Shown: positions 10,037 through 18,550 of the stretch, in pieces
Position numbering within the stretch: the stretch's first letter is position 1
How the letters are laid out: every line of letters begins with the position of its first letter
From: a virus
Length of the DNA stretch: 20,831 nt
Direction: 5' to 3' (one strand)
IMG/VR virus record: IMGVR_UViG_3300009164_003768
Location: 1-20,831 of that record
Program-made: the position numbers and the translations under genes
The notes under the pieces: model-generated
What the model was told of the DNA's origin: nothing
What the model saw: only the letters and a program-made list of their open reading frames with translations
Databases searched by the model: none

Positions 10037-11299
10037 ATGGATGAATCAAATAAAAGTTTTTGTGTGATGCCTTGGATTAATGTATCATCACATACCGATG
10101 GTTCAGCAAGATTGTGTTGTGTATCGGATGATTTTATTAAAAAAAACGATGGTACTAAATTTAATTTAGGCTACGACAAACTTGAAGATATTATAAATTC
10201 TGATAGTTATAAAAAAATTAGACAGGACATGATAGATGGAAAATCTATTGAAGGTTGTTATAAATGCTACGATGCTGAAAATAACAACGGCAGGAGCCAT
10301 AGGCAAAATTATAACACATCATGGAAAAGTGATCCTGACTTCTTTCAAAAGTATAAAAAATCATTAAATAATAAAAATGAAATAGAAAACACCGTTCAAT
10401 ATTTTGATTTGCGTTTTGGAAATTTATGTAATTTAGCATGTAGAAGTTGTTATTCAGGCGCAAGTAGCCAGTTTAATGAAGAAGTAAAAGAACTGCAAGA
10501 AACTCAACCTGCTATTTCAAAATTTCATGGAATAATTAAAGAATCACTTAATGAATGGTACAACACTGATATTTTTGATAAAAACATTAACGATAATCTA
10601 TCTACATTAAGACAATATTATTGTGTGGGAGGAGAGCCCACACTAATAGATAAAAATTATGAAATTTTAAAAAGCATGGTTGATTCGGGGCATAGTAAAC
10701 ATGTAGTATTAGTATTAAATTCAAATATGACTAATACCAAAAAAGATTTTTATGCATTCTTTAAGCATTTTAAAAAGGTTGATATCCTTGCAAGTATTGA
10801 CGGAGTTAATGAAATGCAAGAGTATCTAAGATATCCCAGCAGCTGGAAACAAGTTTCAAATAATCTGATTAAAGTAATAGATATGCAATTGCCTAATTTA
10901 TTTGTCTTTTTAACTCCTGTTATACAAAAAACAAATTTAGAATATATTACTGAACTGTTTGAATTTGCAGAAACTATTAATAGAAAATATGAAAAATCTA
11001 TAGTAAAAATTTCACCTACAATTTTGATGGATCCGCCATATTTAGATTTAATGTATTTGCCATTAGAATACAAAATTAAATGTTGGGAAAAAATACAAGA
11101 ATGGATTAATAATTCTTGCAAATATCAATCGCCGGTGTTTCACAAGCAATTAGAAACTATAAAAACTAAATGTTTTACTGAAGTAAACTACCAAGAAAAT
11201 TTACTTAATTATTTTGAATTTTCTGATATTTTTGATAAAAACAGAAATGAAAAATTGTCGGACATTAACCCAGAACTAAATCAATTTAGAACTAAATAG
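10037..11299 (+). CDS. Twitch-type radical SAM protein
   Basis: A 420-residue radical SAM enzyme. The 4Fe-4S motif is C131-x3-C135-x2-C138 in LCNLACRSCYS, and GGEP (198-201) is the SAM-binding motif. The N-terminal region carries additional cysteines (C9 in CVMPW, C27-C28, and a GCYKCYDAE segment), as in twitch/SPASM-like proteins that hold a second cluster. The N-terminal position of these cysteines is the arrangement I associate with phage and marine twitch-domain proteins. It is AT-rich, has no evident ribosome binding site, and follows the sugar cassette, so it may perform a radical modification of the same product. Substrate unknown. Confidence 0.86.
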   Translation: MDESNKSFCVMPWINVSSHTDGSARLCCVSDDFIKKNDGTKFNLGYDKLEDIINSDSYKKIRQDMIDGKSIEGCYKCYDAENNNGRSHRQNYNTSWKSDPDFFQKYKKSLNNKNEIENTVQYFDLRFGNLCNLACRSCYSGASSQFNEEVKELQETQPAISKFHGIIKESLNEWYNTDIFDKNINDNLSTLRQYYCVGGEPTLIDKNYEILKSMVDSGHSKHVVLVLNSNMTNTKKDFYAFFKHFKKVDILASIDGVNEMQEYLRYPSSWKQVSNNLIKVIDMQLPNLFVFLTPVIQKTNLEYITELFEFAETINRKYEKSIVKISPTILMDPPYLDLMYLPLEYKIKCWEKIQEWINNSCKYQSPVFHKQLETIKTKCFTEVNYQENLLNYFEFSDIFDKNRNEKLSDINPELNQFRTK

Positions 11300-11800
11300 A
11301 TGATGTGGATCTTATCATATCTTCCCGATTTTATAACTCATATCATCTTTTTTCTAGGGGTAGCCGGAACTATCATAGGATTTTTATTGGGTTTTATTCC
11401 CGGTATAAAACCCTATCAATTTGCTATTCAAGTTATCAGTATTCTAGTATTAAGTTTTGGAATATATTTAGAGGGTGGATTAGCTGAACAAGCTGTTTGG
11501 AAATCAAAAGTAGCAGAACTAGAAGTAAAAATTGCCGGGGCAGAAGTTAAATCAGAAAAGGTAACTACCGAAGTTGTTACTAAGATTCTTACAAAAAAAC
11601 AAATAATTAAAGAAAAGGGTGATGATATAGTACAATATATTGACCGAGAAATTGTCAAATATGATAATACTTGTCCTATCCCAGAAGAAGTAATAAAATC
11701 ACATAATGCAGCGGCAAAAAATGATACTAGTATTCTAGTTCCAGTTGATTTACATAATAAATTAGCTACACCACCAATAATATTGGCGCCAAAGAAATGA
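11300..11800 (+). CDS. Inner-membrane spanin (Rz-like)
   Basis: A 166-residue protein with two hydrophobic segments (about residues 12-33 and 40-57), then a charged, helical, coiled-coil-like periplasmic region (about 60-120), and a CPIPEEVIKSHNAAA segment near the C-terminus typical of Rz-like phage proteins. Inner spanins join an outer-membrane lipoprotein partner to fuse the two membranes and finish lysis. The next gene, overlapping by 4 nt, is exactly such a lipoprotein. Two membrane spans rather than the single span of lambda Rz is a variation. ATG 11300 or 11303 can start it. No holin or endolysin is visible in the window. Confidence 0.78.
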   Translation: MMWILSYLPDFITHIIFFLGVAGTIIGFLLGFIPGIKPYQFAIQVISILVLSFGIYLEGGLAEQAVWKSKVAELEVKIAGAEVKSEKVTTEVVTKILTKKQIIKEKGDDIVQYIDREIVKYDNTCPIPEEVIKSHNAAAKNDTSILVPVDLHNKLATPPIILAPKK

Positions 11801-12069
11801 AAAAACTACTACTATTATCAGTAATATTTTTGTCAGCATGTAGCACAGTTGTTCCTGTAAAACAACAGTTTCCTGCTTTACCTGAAGAATTATCACAAAC
11901 CTGCAAACCTTTAGAGACTATTGAGGGTACAACCACTACATTGAGCAATTTAATGGAAGTTGTAGCAAAAAACTACAGTACAAGACATGAATGTGCAGCA
12001 CAGTTAGAAGCAGTACTTGAGTGGTATAATAAACAGAAGAAGATTTTTGAAGAAGTCAATTCTGACTAA
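11797..12069 (+). CDS. Outer-membrane lipoprotein spanin (Rz1-like)
   Basis: A 90-residue protein with a classic lipoprotein signal: MKK, a hydrophobic core, and the lipobox LSAC with the lipidated cysteine at C15. The mature part starts STVVPV, contains FPALPEELSQTCKPL, and ends in a helical region. It overlaps the inner spanin gene by 4 nt (ATGA), the usual coupled arrangement for separate i-spanin/o-spanin pairs. It would sit in the inner leaflet of the outer membrane, meaning the host is Gram-negative. The pairing supports both calls more strongly than either alone. Confidence 0.8.
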   Translation: MKKLLLLSVIFLSACSTVVPVKQQFPALPEELSQTCKPLETIEGTTTTLSNLMEVVAKNYSTRHECAAQLEAVLEWYNKQKKIFEEVNSD

Positions 12070-12071
12070 TA

Positions 12072-12104
12072 CCTAAATAGTGATAAATACACTATAGTTT
12101 AGGA
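12072..12104 (+). promoter_or_regulatory. T4-type late promoter in the loop of a ribosome-site-sequestering hairpin
   Basis: CCTAAATAGTG (12072-12082) pairs with CACTA (12090-12094) and TTTAGG (12098-12103), giving 11 bp with a 3-nt bulge. The 7-nt loop, 12083-12089, is exactly ATAAATA, the late-promoter core. The 3' arm overlaps the ribosome binding site AGGA (12101-12104) of the gene at 12112. By T4 spacing the late start would be near 12095, leaving out the 5' arm. Pairing is seen in the sequence; function is inferred. Confidence 0.7.
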
Positions 12105-12111
12105 TATAGAG

Positions 12112-12660
12112 ATGACACAAGAAATAATCAATATAGGTGCTCAACCCAATGATGGGGAAGGCGATCCGTTACGTACAGCTTTTGAAAAAGTTAACAATAA
12201 TTTCTCACAGTTATATAGTACAGGATTTTTTACTTCAAGTGCTTATTCTGTTGGATTAACTGCTGATCAAGTTATATTTGAAGCCCCAGTAGAAACATTT
12301 ACACAAGGTATATTTCAAATTAATTCTAATGATACATTATCTACTGATACTGAAAACATCACGTTAAATGTTTCTGTAATCAACGACGGTAGTGGATTGA
12401 AATGGAACGGACACAATACATTGTTTAATGGTAATGTATTAACTGGCTATGACATGGATATAGATATAGTTTCTTCAAATGTTCGCATATTAGTTAATCC
12501 AATCGTAGATACAACAATATTTCATTTTATATCGGCACAAATTACATGGACCGGTGTTCCTGTGCCCGGACTAGTTATTCAAGTTGATGGTTCTATCAAT
12601 ACTGATCTTGACACAGAAAACAATTTCAATTTAGAGACTGAAAATCAAATCACCGTATGA
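12112..12660 (+). CDS. Virion structural protein, tail-fibre/baseplate-like N-terminus
   Basis: The N-terminus MTQEIINIGAQPNDGEGDPL, followed by RTAFEKVNNNFSQLY, is a motif repeatedly found at the start of tail-fibre or baseplate-associated proteins of marine T4-like phages. The remaining residues (about 45-182) are beta-strand-rich with many Asn, Thr, Asp and Val residues, low in Lys and Cys, as in fibre-like or bacterial-surface-like folds. The late-type promoter and switchable ribosome site directly upstream also fit a late virion gene. The exact place in the virion is not determined. It overlaps the next gene by 4 nt. Confidence 0.68.
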   Translation: MTQEIINIGAQPNDGEGDPLRTAFEKVNNNFSQLYSTGFFTSSAYSVGLTADQVIFEAPVETFTQGIFQINSNDTLSTDTENITLNVSVINDGSGLKWNGHNTLFNGNVLTGYDMDIDIVSSNVRILVNPIVDTTIFHFISAQITWTGVPVPGLVIQVDGSINTDLDTENNFNLETENQITV

Positions 12661-14180: not shown

Positions 14181-14201
14181 ATAAATACTCATTATGAGTA
14201 T
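14181..14201 (+). promoter_or_regulatory. Late promoter and start-codon hairpin in front of the terminase gene
   Basis: ATAAATAC at 14181-14188 matches the late-promoter core and places the expected transcript start at about 14193, one base before ATG 14194. ATACTCA (14185-14191) and TGAGTAT (14195-14201) form a 7-bp stem around TTA, so the start codon lies at the loop/stem border in read-through RNA. No Shine-Dalgarno sequence precedes the ATG. Confidence 0.62.
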
Positions 14202-15759: not shown

Positions 15760-15768
15760 GATAAATAC
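15760..15768 (+). promoter_or_regulatory. T4-type late promoter before the 894-residue gene
   Basis: GATAAATAC at 15760-15768 is only 4 nt upstream of ATG 15773. By T4 spacing the transcript would begin at the ATG itself. There is no Shine-Dalgarno sequence upstream. The same motif precedes the terminase in almost the same position. Confidence 0.68.
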
Positions 15769-15772
15769 AATT

Positions 15773-18457
15773 ATGCCAACAAATTCAGAATCTTTAAACC
15801 GCGAATTGTTTAGATTACTATCTAGATATAAATCAAAACCATTAGATGCAGAGGGTAAAGTTACCCCTGTGCCCGAAGAAGCAGATGTTTTTAAGTTTGA
15901 ATTCACTAAAGACGGAGAAGATTACGGTACTGTTTATGTTACTATAGATGAAGAACGTGTATTAACTTTATATTATGGCGATGATGTAGCAGATAGTCCC
16001 GGTGATAAAACACCCGGATTGGGATATGATGACACTTGGTGGGGATTACATGATCAATTAAGTGCTTGGAGAATGACCAAGGGCTTAAGAGGATTTAAAA
16101 CACAAAACAAAGACCGTGTGGGTGATGACATGGCAAGAAGGAACCATATGAGAAACAAAGATAAAATAGCAGAGGGTTACTACCCAATGGGCAAGAGTCG
16201 CAGTTACAGTGATGCTGTGCCTAGCGTAAAGATTGTTATTGAGCATAGCCGCGTTATTGAAGAAGGTGAACAACGCTATCGTAACATCAATAGAATTTTT
16301 TTAGAGAATCAAGACGGTGAACGCTATTTACTTGACACTAAGAAGCCAGGTATTGCCCGTGTCTATGCTAGACATATTGCTGAAGGTGGTAAAGTCAATG
16401 ACGACCGTTGGAACCATGTACATAGTCTTTGTGAAGAATACAGTAAGATGGCTGGATTTGTTCGTGCTACACGCAATGGGCAATTCAATGAATCAGCACA
16501 ATCATTAGTTAATGAAGGCATTGCACATTATCAAAGTTTGCGTGAATCATTGAGCCGTATGACTGGCAAGCGTGGTTACAATAGTTACTTTGAAAGTTGG
16601 ACACCATCATTGATGGAAGATGGAACTGAAGAAAACAATCTAAATGAATTGTTTGTGCAAGAGACATTAGACCCACGCATTGAAAGTGTAATGCCAATAT
16701 TAAACAGAATACATAAAAAAGTTTCTGAATCAATAGTTGATAAAGAAATGAACAAGTTAGCAGAGTGGGCTGATAGTTTAGTTGAAGAAGAAAGTCTAAC
16801 AAGTAATAATCCAGGTGGTATCCCTGAAAGCAAAATGGATGAAGGTGTACTTGATAGTATTAAGAATATGTTTGGTAAAAAAGATCAAACACCTATTGCC
16901 TTTGACCGCCCGGGGAGTGTCACACCTGAGGACATTCTTATAGCATATCAAAGAGAACCTGATTTTACAGCATACGTTAAAAATCTTGCAATGCAAAACA
17001 GTATATCTCCTAAAGAAGTGATTAAACAACTTCAACAATCAGTGGGTCCGCTAACAGTACAACCTGATTATAGGAAAGAGTCCATTCCTTCTGAAGGTAT
17101 GGAAGAAGCTATCAATACAGGTGCTTCTTTACAAAGATTTAGAAACGATCCTCGAGGTAATCAAAAATTACCTGCAACACCGGCAAAAGAAGTAGATGAG
17201 ATTATTGATTACGATACACTAAATCAGTTAGCATCGCACCCAATGGCCGGCCCTCTTGCAGCAGCAGGCGGAGCAGCAATTGGTGCTACAATTGGTAAAG
17301 GTATTACAAAAGCTGCCAATTGGTATAAAAATAGACAAGAAAAGAAGGCTCAAGATTATGATATGAGAGGTAACAAGGTAGCAGAAGAAGTAGACACTGG
17401 TCAATATGATGCTGTTAAATCCTCACACAAAGGCGGACCTACCCCAAAACAAGAAAAAAGCTTCCGCGAGAAAGTACAAGCATACGGTAAAGAATTAGAG
17501 CAACGTCAGAAAGAAAAAGGTGTGGCAGAAGGCGACGGCAATCCTGATATTCAGCCAGGCATGAAGGTATCTCAAGGAACAGTTGAAAAAGTAGATGGCA
17601 ACATTGTCACAGTAAAAACATCAAACGGTGATATGATAACTATGAACATACACGATGTAGATCAAGCTGTGGCGGAAGATTCGCACGAAGAACAAGTTGC
17701 AAGATTGGCCGCATACAATGAAAGAATGGCCGGTGAAAATCCACCAATCGACTTGGGTCTACGAGAAGTAGGCAACTGGGCAAAGGTTGGTCACTATGGT
17801 GATCCTATCAAAACAGCTTGGTATAATATAGCAAAATACGGAGTTAGAAATAATAGATTTAAAGATTCAGTCGACCAAGTAATGTCGGCTATTGGTGAAT
17901 TCCCTGATCTGGAAGACGAAGTATATGACATGTATGATATTAACCAAGATGAAGTGGATATATTATATGATGCCTATGAAACAGTATATGACCAATGGGA
18001 ACAATCACAAGGTGCGACTAATGAAAACTTTATAAACCAAGTTGACCAAGCAGTTACTAGTGAAGGTGAACATACTCAACATGCTATGCGTGGTCGCAAT
18101 CCTGGCGCTAATGAATTTGAACATGACTTTGAACCAGAAGATAAGATTGGCAACATCCATGACAAAATATCAAAGATGTTAAAGAGATTAGAAAAGCCAA
18201 AGCATGAACCAAGTATGAAAGATACCGATCTTGGTAATACATTACATGAAGCAGCACCTTGGGAAGATGAGGATGAAGAAGATAAGGATGATAAGAAGCC
18301 AAAAGATACTAAAGGTAGTGATGGTTCTGAACACGGCGGTCATTCTAGGGCAAAGCATTTAGCAAAAAATGCCATTCCAAAAGATGATAAGAAAGAAGTT
18401 AGTGAGGGTCAAGATGAATTGGCACGTATCTTAACAATAATGAATCACAGAAGATAA
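15773..18457 (+). CDS. Large modular acidic protein, probably virion-associated
   Basis: At 894 residues this is the largest gene here. The N-terminal part (about 1-330) is a globular region conserved in appearance with a large unknown of marine T4-like phages (LNRELFRLLSRYKSKPLD, then GYYPMGKSRSYSDAVPSVK). The remainder looks modular. It includes a segment near 350-440 with many helices, a glycine/alanine zipper at 491-511 (MAGPLAAAGGAAIGATIGKG) that could enter a membrane, an SH3-like beta segment around 595-631, a helical domain near 640-755, and a charged acidic tail. Short V/I-x-E-G/D/E tetrads recur at the module borders. No catalytic motif is seen. A late promoter and its position after the terminase suggest a head or ejected internal protein; function remains unassigned. 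Confidence 0.6.
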   Translation: MPTNSESLNRELFRLLSRYKSKPLDAEGKVTPVPEEADVFKFEFTKDGEDYGTVYVTIDEERVLTLYYGDDVADSPGDKTPGLGYDDTWWGLHDQLSAWRMTKGLRGFKTQNKDRVGDDMARRNHMRNKDKIAEGYYPMGKSRSYSDAVPSVKIVIEHSRVIEEGEQRYRNINRIFLENQDGERYLLDTKKPGIARVYARHIAEGGKVNDDRWNHVHSLCEEYSKMAGFVRATRNGQFNESAQSLVNEGIAHYQSLRESLSRMTGKRGYNSYFESWTPSLMEDGTEENNLNELFVQETLDPRIESVMPILNRIHKKVSESIVDKEMNKLAEWADSLVEEESLTSNNPGGIPESKMDEGVLDSIKNMFGKKDQTPIAFDRPGSVTPEDILIAYQREPDFTAYVKNLAMQNSISPKEVIKQLQQSVGPLTVQPDYRKESIPSEGMEEAINTGASLQRFRNDPRGNQKLPATPAKEVDEIIDYDTLNQLASHPMAGPLAAAGGAAIGATIGKGITKAANWYKNRQEKKAQDYDMRGNKVAEEVDTGQYDAVKSSHKGGPTPKQEKSFREKVQAYGKELEQRQKEKGVAEGDGNPDIQPGMKVSQGTVEKVDGNIVTVKTSNGDMITMNIHDVDQAVAEDSHEEQVARLAAYNERMAGENPPIDLGLREVGNWAKVGHYGDPIKTAWYNIAKYGVRNNRFKDSVDQVMSAIGEFPDLEDEVYDMYDINQDEVDILYDAYETVYDQWEQSQGATNENFINQVDQAVTSEGEHTQHAMRGRNPGANEFEHDFEPEDKIGNIHDKISKMLKRLEKPKHEPSMKDTDLGNTLHEAAPWEDEDEEDKDDKKPKDTKGSDGSEHGGHSRAKHLAKNAIPKDDKKEVSEGQDELARILTIMNHRR

Positions 18458-18512: not shown

Positions 18513-18520
18513 ATAAATAC
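18513..18520 (+). promoter_or_regulatory. T4-type late promoter for the gp32-like gene
   Basis: ATAAATAC at 18513-18520, the same 8-mer found at 12083, 14181 and 15761. It lies just upstream of a sigma70 promoter, so the gp32-like gene could be read early and late. It is about 110 nt from the ATG. Confidence 0.6.
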
Positions 18521-18521
18521 A

Positions 18522-18550
18522 TTGACAGTTTGAGAAAGTAATGATATACT
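18522..18550 (+). promoter_or_regulatory. Strong sigma70 promoter for the gp32-like gene
   Basis: A consensus -35 TTGACA (18522-18527) and -10 TATACT (18545-18550) are separated by exactly 17 nt. TGA in front of the -10 gives an extended -10 (TGnTATACT). The start would be near 18557, giving a leader of about 72 nt. Confidence 0.88.

Follow-up and report, generated by a model that had tools for sequence, protein, structure and literature searches.

A late promoter inside a Shine-Dalgarno-hiding hairpin: candidate promoter-gated translation of a virion gene in uncultured T4-superfamily phages

The lysozyme gene e of bacteriophage T4 is carried both on long transcripts that hide its ribosome-binding site (RBS) and on late-promoter RNA that lacks the 5' arm of the hiding structure (PMC3014915). 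Late promoters are similarly positioned at T4 genes I-TevI, I-TevII, I-TevIII and segB and at mobE of Aeh1, so that late transcripts escape an RBS-hiding structure (PMC2988022), and inhibitory initiation structures with a buried RBS have been described for T4 soc, 49, 25 and 26 (PMC2988022, PMC3014915). Here we analyse a comparable element in a 20,831-nt stretch of viral DNA, referred to as the window throughout. The genome that carries it belongs to the T4 superfamily, more precisely to an uncultured group of jumbo phages that is related to T4 but distant from it. The window TerL matches Terminase_6N/6C and shares no more than 51% identity with that of the isolate phages compared, e.g., Sinorhizobium phage Phosso and Pseudomonas phage PA5oct.

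The hairpin and its surroundings

The element lies between a pair of spanin genes and a virion gene, and its parts are the following:

11292..11298, + strand: CTAAATA, a variant late-type motif before the i-spanin gene (ATG 11300/11303), where relatives have ATAAATA
11300..11800, + strand: i-spanin-like gene (ORF; phrog_4952), presumed i-spanin from its position, overlapping the o-spanin start
11797..12069, + strand: o-spanin gene (Rz1/LysC-like lipoprotein; Pfam LysC 1.1e-9; phrog_456, Rz-like spanin)
12072..12082, + strand: hairpin 5' arm CCTAAATAGTG, upstream of the predicted late start
12083..12089, + strand: late promoter motif ATAAATA, read from the sequence, forming the hairpin loop
12090..12103, + strand: hairpin 3' arm CACTATAGTTTAGG with a 3-nt bulge at 12096-12098, covering the AGG of the Shine-Dalgarno (SD) sequence
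12095, + strand: predicted late transcription start (last A of the motif + 6), which we take from T4 late promoter geometry
12101..12104, + strand: SD sequence AGGA, 7 nt before the ATG (12112)
12112..12660, + strand: virion gene, 182 aa (phrog_677, 7e-9)

The 3' end of the o-spanin gene is the source of read-through RNA into the hairpin. The N-terminus of the 182-aa protein resembles baseplate wedge and tail-fibre connector proteins, and the protein is 30% identical to a cyanophage protein annotated as gp9, suggesting a putative baseplate/tail-fibre protein. A recurring N-terminus, MTQEIINIGxxPNDGxGDPLRTAFxKxNxNF, is found at many loci, variants of it (MTQE.., MTQKVIKAS..) head several different genes, and each of these genes is preceded by a similar late promoter/leader cassette; this N-terminus is a probable baseplate-attachment domain common to several genes, with a leader that travels along.

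An earlier note on this DNA had described an 11-bp stem covering AGGA. Eleven base pairs are indeed present, but they are split into 6 + 5 bp by the bulge, and the outer pairs include only the AGG while the last A is mostly unpaired. Positions 12072-12104 fold with a minimum free energy (MFE) of -8.4 kcal/mol versus -2.9 +/- 1.9 for shuffled sequences (z -2.82; 2 of 200 shuffles equally good), and the thermodynamic fold with flanks that the note had proposed as a check (12060-12125) yields -9.5 kcal/mol (z -1.83). Judged on its own sequence, the window stem is thus modestly unusual (z -1.8 to -2.8), and comparison with shuffled 5' arms gives p 0.07-0.20.

The note's view that read-through RNA is closed and RNA from 12095 open agrees with the predicted folds: the pairing probability of AGG is ~1.00 in read-through RNA at 37, 25 and 15 °C, and AGG is mostly free in RNA starting at 12094/12095, from which the 5' arm is absent. 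With longer sequence context, the predicted read-through pairing stretches toward the AUG, and a longer fold of the RNA from 12095 has the AUG lightly paired (-3.8 kcal/mol), which counts against an open late RNA. The 7-nt loop is precisely ATAAATA, as had been pointed out, but the exact match of loop and promoter is incidental: stems of at least 3 bp close on 3.4% of ATAAATA motifs versus 2.4% of control 7-mers, a difference that is not significant, and the loop boundaries are different in relatives. In view of this lack of enrichment among motifs, we rejected the exact loop as a meaningful feature.

Pairing between the arms among relatives

Eighty relatives of the downstream protein, the results of a pattern search blind to the 5' arm and 53 more distant relatives were pooled and gave 60 distinct elements. 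In the clade of the window, the leader (CACTATAGTTTAGGA) hardly varies, while the 5' arm occurs in about ten forms (including CCTAAATAGTG, CCAAAACTGTG, CTTAAACTGTG and GACTAAAGTG), most to nearly all of which can still pair with AGTTTAGG, often after a shift in register; the arms CCAAAACTGTG of L012 and CTTAAACTGTG of L094 reach -15.1 and -14.5 kcal/mol, respectively. Where protein identity drops to 48%, the two arms have both been replaced and are complementary again, as in L067 (CCGTTT/AAACGG plus CTGGTCT/AGACTAG; -15.6 versus -6.9 for the null) and L077 (AGTAATCTT/AAGATTACT; -17.3). The rebuilt stems of distant relatives (p<=0.005) continue to pair bases in the SD region or beside the AUG, and the changes between clades include G-U pairs and shifted registers. 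Because the arms change while pairing persists, it is the structure and not the sequence that is conserved.

For an arm-swap test, the elements were grouped by which gene lies upstream. Compensatory change, which the earlier note had named as a check, is evident behind the o-spanin gene: across the 30 distinct elements of this class, native arms average -9.97 kcal/mol versus -7.29 for swapped ones (sd 0.43; permutation p 0.0002, a guide rather than an exact value, since each arm is inherited with its leader and the lineages are only partly independent). It does not extend to the 18 elements with a lipoprotein gene upstream (-7.69 versus -7.20, p 0.09), which lack the arm-swap signal and serve as an internal control, and the element is not universal. 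Median SD pairing is 0.74 in read-through versus 0.37 in late RNA for the o-spanin class and 0.43 versus 0.26 for the lipoprotein-upstream class. In most relatives, the stem lies between the o-spanin stop codon and the promoter, which begins 3-16 nt past that stop, yet L195, L048 and L089 lie behind an o-spanin gene without a clear SD-closing stem. Asymmetry between sense and antisense folds did not separate RNA from DNA structure. Taken as a comparison of sequences, these data indicate that the hairpin has very probably been rebuilt by compensating changes during evolution and that the element is real.

In L053, L057, L083 and others, a small lipoprotein gene separates the o-spanin and virion genes and ends in a stop codon that overlaps the late motif (TGATAAATAC); these relatives keep promoter and SD but have no hairpin. 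Such relatives are a natural deletion control for the hairpin, and since about 18 elements with another gene upstream have no stem, the virion gene can do without it. Comparing the gene between relatives that have the hairpin and those that lack it thus provides ready natural controls.

Late promoters of the phage group and the same design before other genes

The late motif of T4-like cyanophages is NATAAATA (PMC2984593), and the T4-type motif TATAAATA/NATAAATA is matched here by GATAAATAC. Across the window and six related contigs, 199 of the 441 ATAAATA occurrences have an ATG no more than 40 nt away (counting ORFs of at least 80 aa only), a far higher share than for control 7-mers (48-127 of 334-777), and the distances of ATAAATA to the ATG form two sharp peaks. 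For CTAAATA, itself a probable variant of the motif, the count is 74 of 282. Of 10 related large contigs, 8 have a gp55-like late sigma (phrog_234, E~1e-22); the 20.8-kb window is itself too short to show one. The group thus has both the motif of T4-type late promoters and, in relatives, the sigma factor. A late-type motif also lies within a few nt of the spanin gene ATG in nearly all relatives, in the form of ATAAATA or, as in the window, CTAAATA.

The i-spanin gene is preceded by CTAAATA instead of ATAAATA not only in the window (11292) but also in L017, L106 and L117, and in the window and L017 a radical SAM/SPASM gene ends at this site. Genome-wide, CTAAATA shows a peak at 4-5 nt from the ATG (11 and 7 cases) like that of ATAAATA and may be a working late motif.

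About one-third of gene-linked late-type motifs sit 4-7 nt before the ATG, with a peak at 5 that places the ATG at the predicted +1, and very few sit at 8-15 nt. The motif fills most of the space in the 65 promoters of the 4-7 nt class, none of which has an SD-like trimer compared to 91 of 116 leadered ones. This placement is found in the window at 14181-14194 (terL), 15761-15773 (the next gene) and 11292-11303 (i-spanin) and in related contigs (L196-L267); the corresponding counts are 0/27 for T4, 0/15 for cyanophage and 2/32 for PA5oct. The pattern suggests that leaderless late mRNAs form a large class in this phage group, including those of terL, a spanin gene and others. A search of the open literature for such late genes in T4-like or jumbo phages returned no match.

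Two further layouts were noted. At 18513-18545, ahead of a gp32-like SSB gene (18629), a near-perfect sigma70 promoter (TTGACA, 17 nt, TATACT) comes directly after ATAAATA; G001 and G004 have the same arrangement some 105 nt ahead of the homologous SSB gene, and it is probably a combined late and early promoter. At L216:19023 of the G001 contig (ATAAATACTCACTACATGTGAGTATTTTTTTATG), the late motif itself is the 5' arm of a stem with a T-run after it; the layout resembles an intrinsic terminator, one that could form in read-through RNA only.

We rejected the idea that hairpins are a general feature of late promoters after a first cross-pairing test of 90 promoters found no overall excess (5.46 versus 5.18); the excess is confined to some genes. 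A local test, with shuffling restricted to the 24 nt ahead of the motif, was applied to 119 leadered late promoters of related genomes and returned 11 at p<=0.01 (about 1 expected) and 20 at p<=0.05, with the low-p promoters clustering in few gene families. The hairpin design precedes the head-tail adaptor gene (phrog_211) in 5 of 5 genomes, at about -20 kcal/mol in several, and 18 of 19 variants of this element have p<=0.01 while one has no hairpin. It is likewise present before a baseplate wedge gene (phrog_10646; 5/6 genomes), a small virion protein gene (phrog_11854; 4/4) and an unannotated 85-aa gene (2/4). The arm-swap test gave p 0.48 for the baseplate wedge alone and p 0.14 for the adaptor alone, the sequences being too few or too alike. 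With T4 as positive control, gene e and I-TevII emerged as the two strongest cases (p 0.007; 6 of 23 promoters at p<=0.05), so the local test detects the known kind of switch, and the rate in the window's group is comparable with that of T4. The same test gave 0/12 for cyanophage ACG-2014d and 3/28 for PA5oct. Together with the predicted folds, the recovery of the T4 genes supports the T4 logic of a late promoter in an SD-hiding hairpin that the earlier note had invoked.

Probable promoter-gated translation and its alternatives

We consider it likely, at a probability of roughly 0.78, that the element is a promoter-gated translation switch by which the virion gene is translated only from the RNA of its own late promoter. 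In RNA arriving from the spanin or earlier genes, 12072-12103 would fold and bury the SD of the 182-aa gene, which would block initiation in the infected cell. RNA polymerase with the gp55-like late sigma would start at about 12095, within the hairpin element, and the resulting RNA would have no 5' arm and a free SD and would be translated. The presumed biological purpose is that the virion protein would not be made from polycistronic read-through RNA, whatever its age.

Such gating by the gene's own promoter fits the data better than the early/late timing proposed in the earlier note, in which the hairpin strictly silences early and middle read-through and delays the virion protein until late promoters fire. 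Read-through of that age is plausible from the gene order, given that thymidylate synthase, sugar and radical SAM genes abut on the same strand of the window with tiny gaps between neighbours, and T4 gene e and I-TevI offer precedents (PMC3014915, PMC2988022). However, nearly all relatives have a separate late-type motif for the spanin gene immediately upstream, so RNA reading through from it is probably late too, and the hairpin would then act as an insulator and not as a timer; the baseplate wedge gene with the same design likewise comes after a gene that has a late promoter of its own. We therefore regard strict timing as possible but somewhat doubtful. With similar reserve, we put forward tentatively that the hairpin is a general insulator and not an early/late clock, with several virion genes of late operons being translated only from own-promoter RNA. 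If so, the tail-fibre connector-like, head-tail adaptor, baseplate wedge and small head protein genes would be insulated, the dose of each protein would be set by its own promoter, and these genes would coexist with a second large late class that has no leader and no SD.

The location of the stem between the o-spanin stop and the promoter, together with its loss where another gene intervenes, might also mean that the hairpin serves the upstream message by stabilising the spanin RNA at its 3' end or by slowing or terminating transcription, with SD burial as a by-product. We think this unlikely, given that no U-run follows the stem, that rebuilt distant stems keep pairing SD-region or AUG-adjacent bases and that the design also precedes genes with different upstream neighbours. 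A palindromic DNA operator overlapping the promoter, in place of an RNA structure, would account for a promoter inside a palindrome and has a parallel in the operator over the late promoter of T4 I-TevI (PMC2988022), but it is very improbable for arms whose sequences differ wholly between clades and retain pairing with G-U pairs and in shifted registers. Fortuitous pairing between spacer and leader, both of which are AT-rich, for which the window's single-sequence p values of 0.07-0.20 would leave room, is strongly disfavoured by the arm-swap test (p 0.0002) and by the rebuilt stems (p<=0.005), and we give it hardly any credence.

The promoter-gated switch that we favour follows a logic already known from T4 gene e, soc, 49, I-TevI and segB and from mobE. 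With gene e, the window element shares an RBS-hiding hairpin and a late promoter upstream of the RBS, and the statistical test applied here recovers gene e; gene e is a lysis gene, whereas the window gene is a putative baseplate/tail-fibre gene behind the spanins, its motif sits in the hairpin loop and its phage is distant and uncultured. The I-TevI-type hairpins show the same logic of late promoter placement, but I-TevI, I-TevII, I-TevIII, segB and mobE are mobile homing endonuclease genes, of which there is none at the window element, and I-TevI additionally represses itself through its operator. The elements of soc, 49, 25 and 26 resemble it in burying the RBS of virion or other late gene transcripts and are compared by logic only, as they have no homology to it. 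Features of the gene e/I-TevI type found here are, in the predicted RNAs, an SD paired on read-through and a late RNA with no 5' arm and a mostly open SD, and, among relatives, compensating change in the o-spanin-upstream class only. What the sequence comparisons would add to the known cases is stronger evolutionary support than a single fold can give, and structural genes as the apparent main users. A gene e type switch would thus be present in distant, uncultured jumbo phages of the T4 superfamily, as evidenced by compensating evolution, and promoter-gated translation would be a recurrent trait of T4-type late expression instead of a curiosity of few T4 genes.
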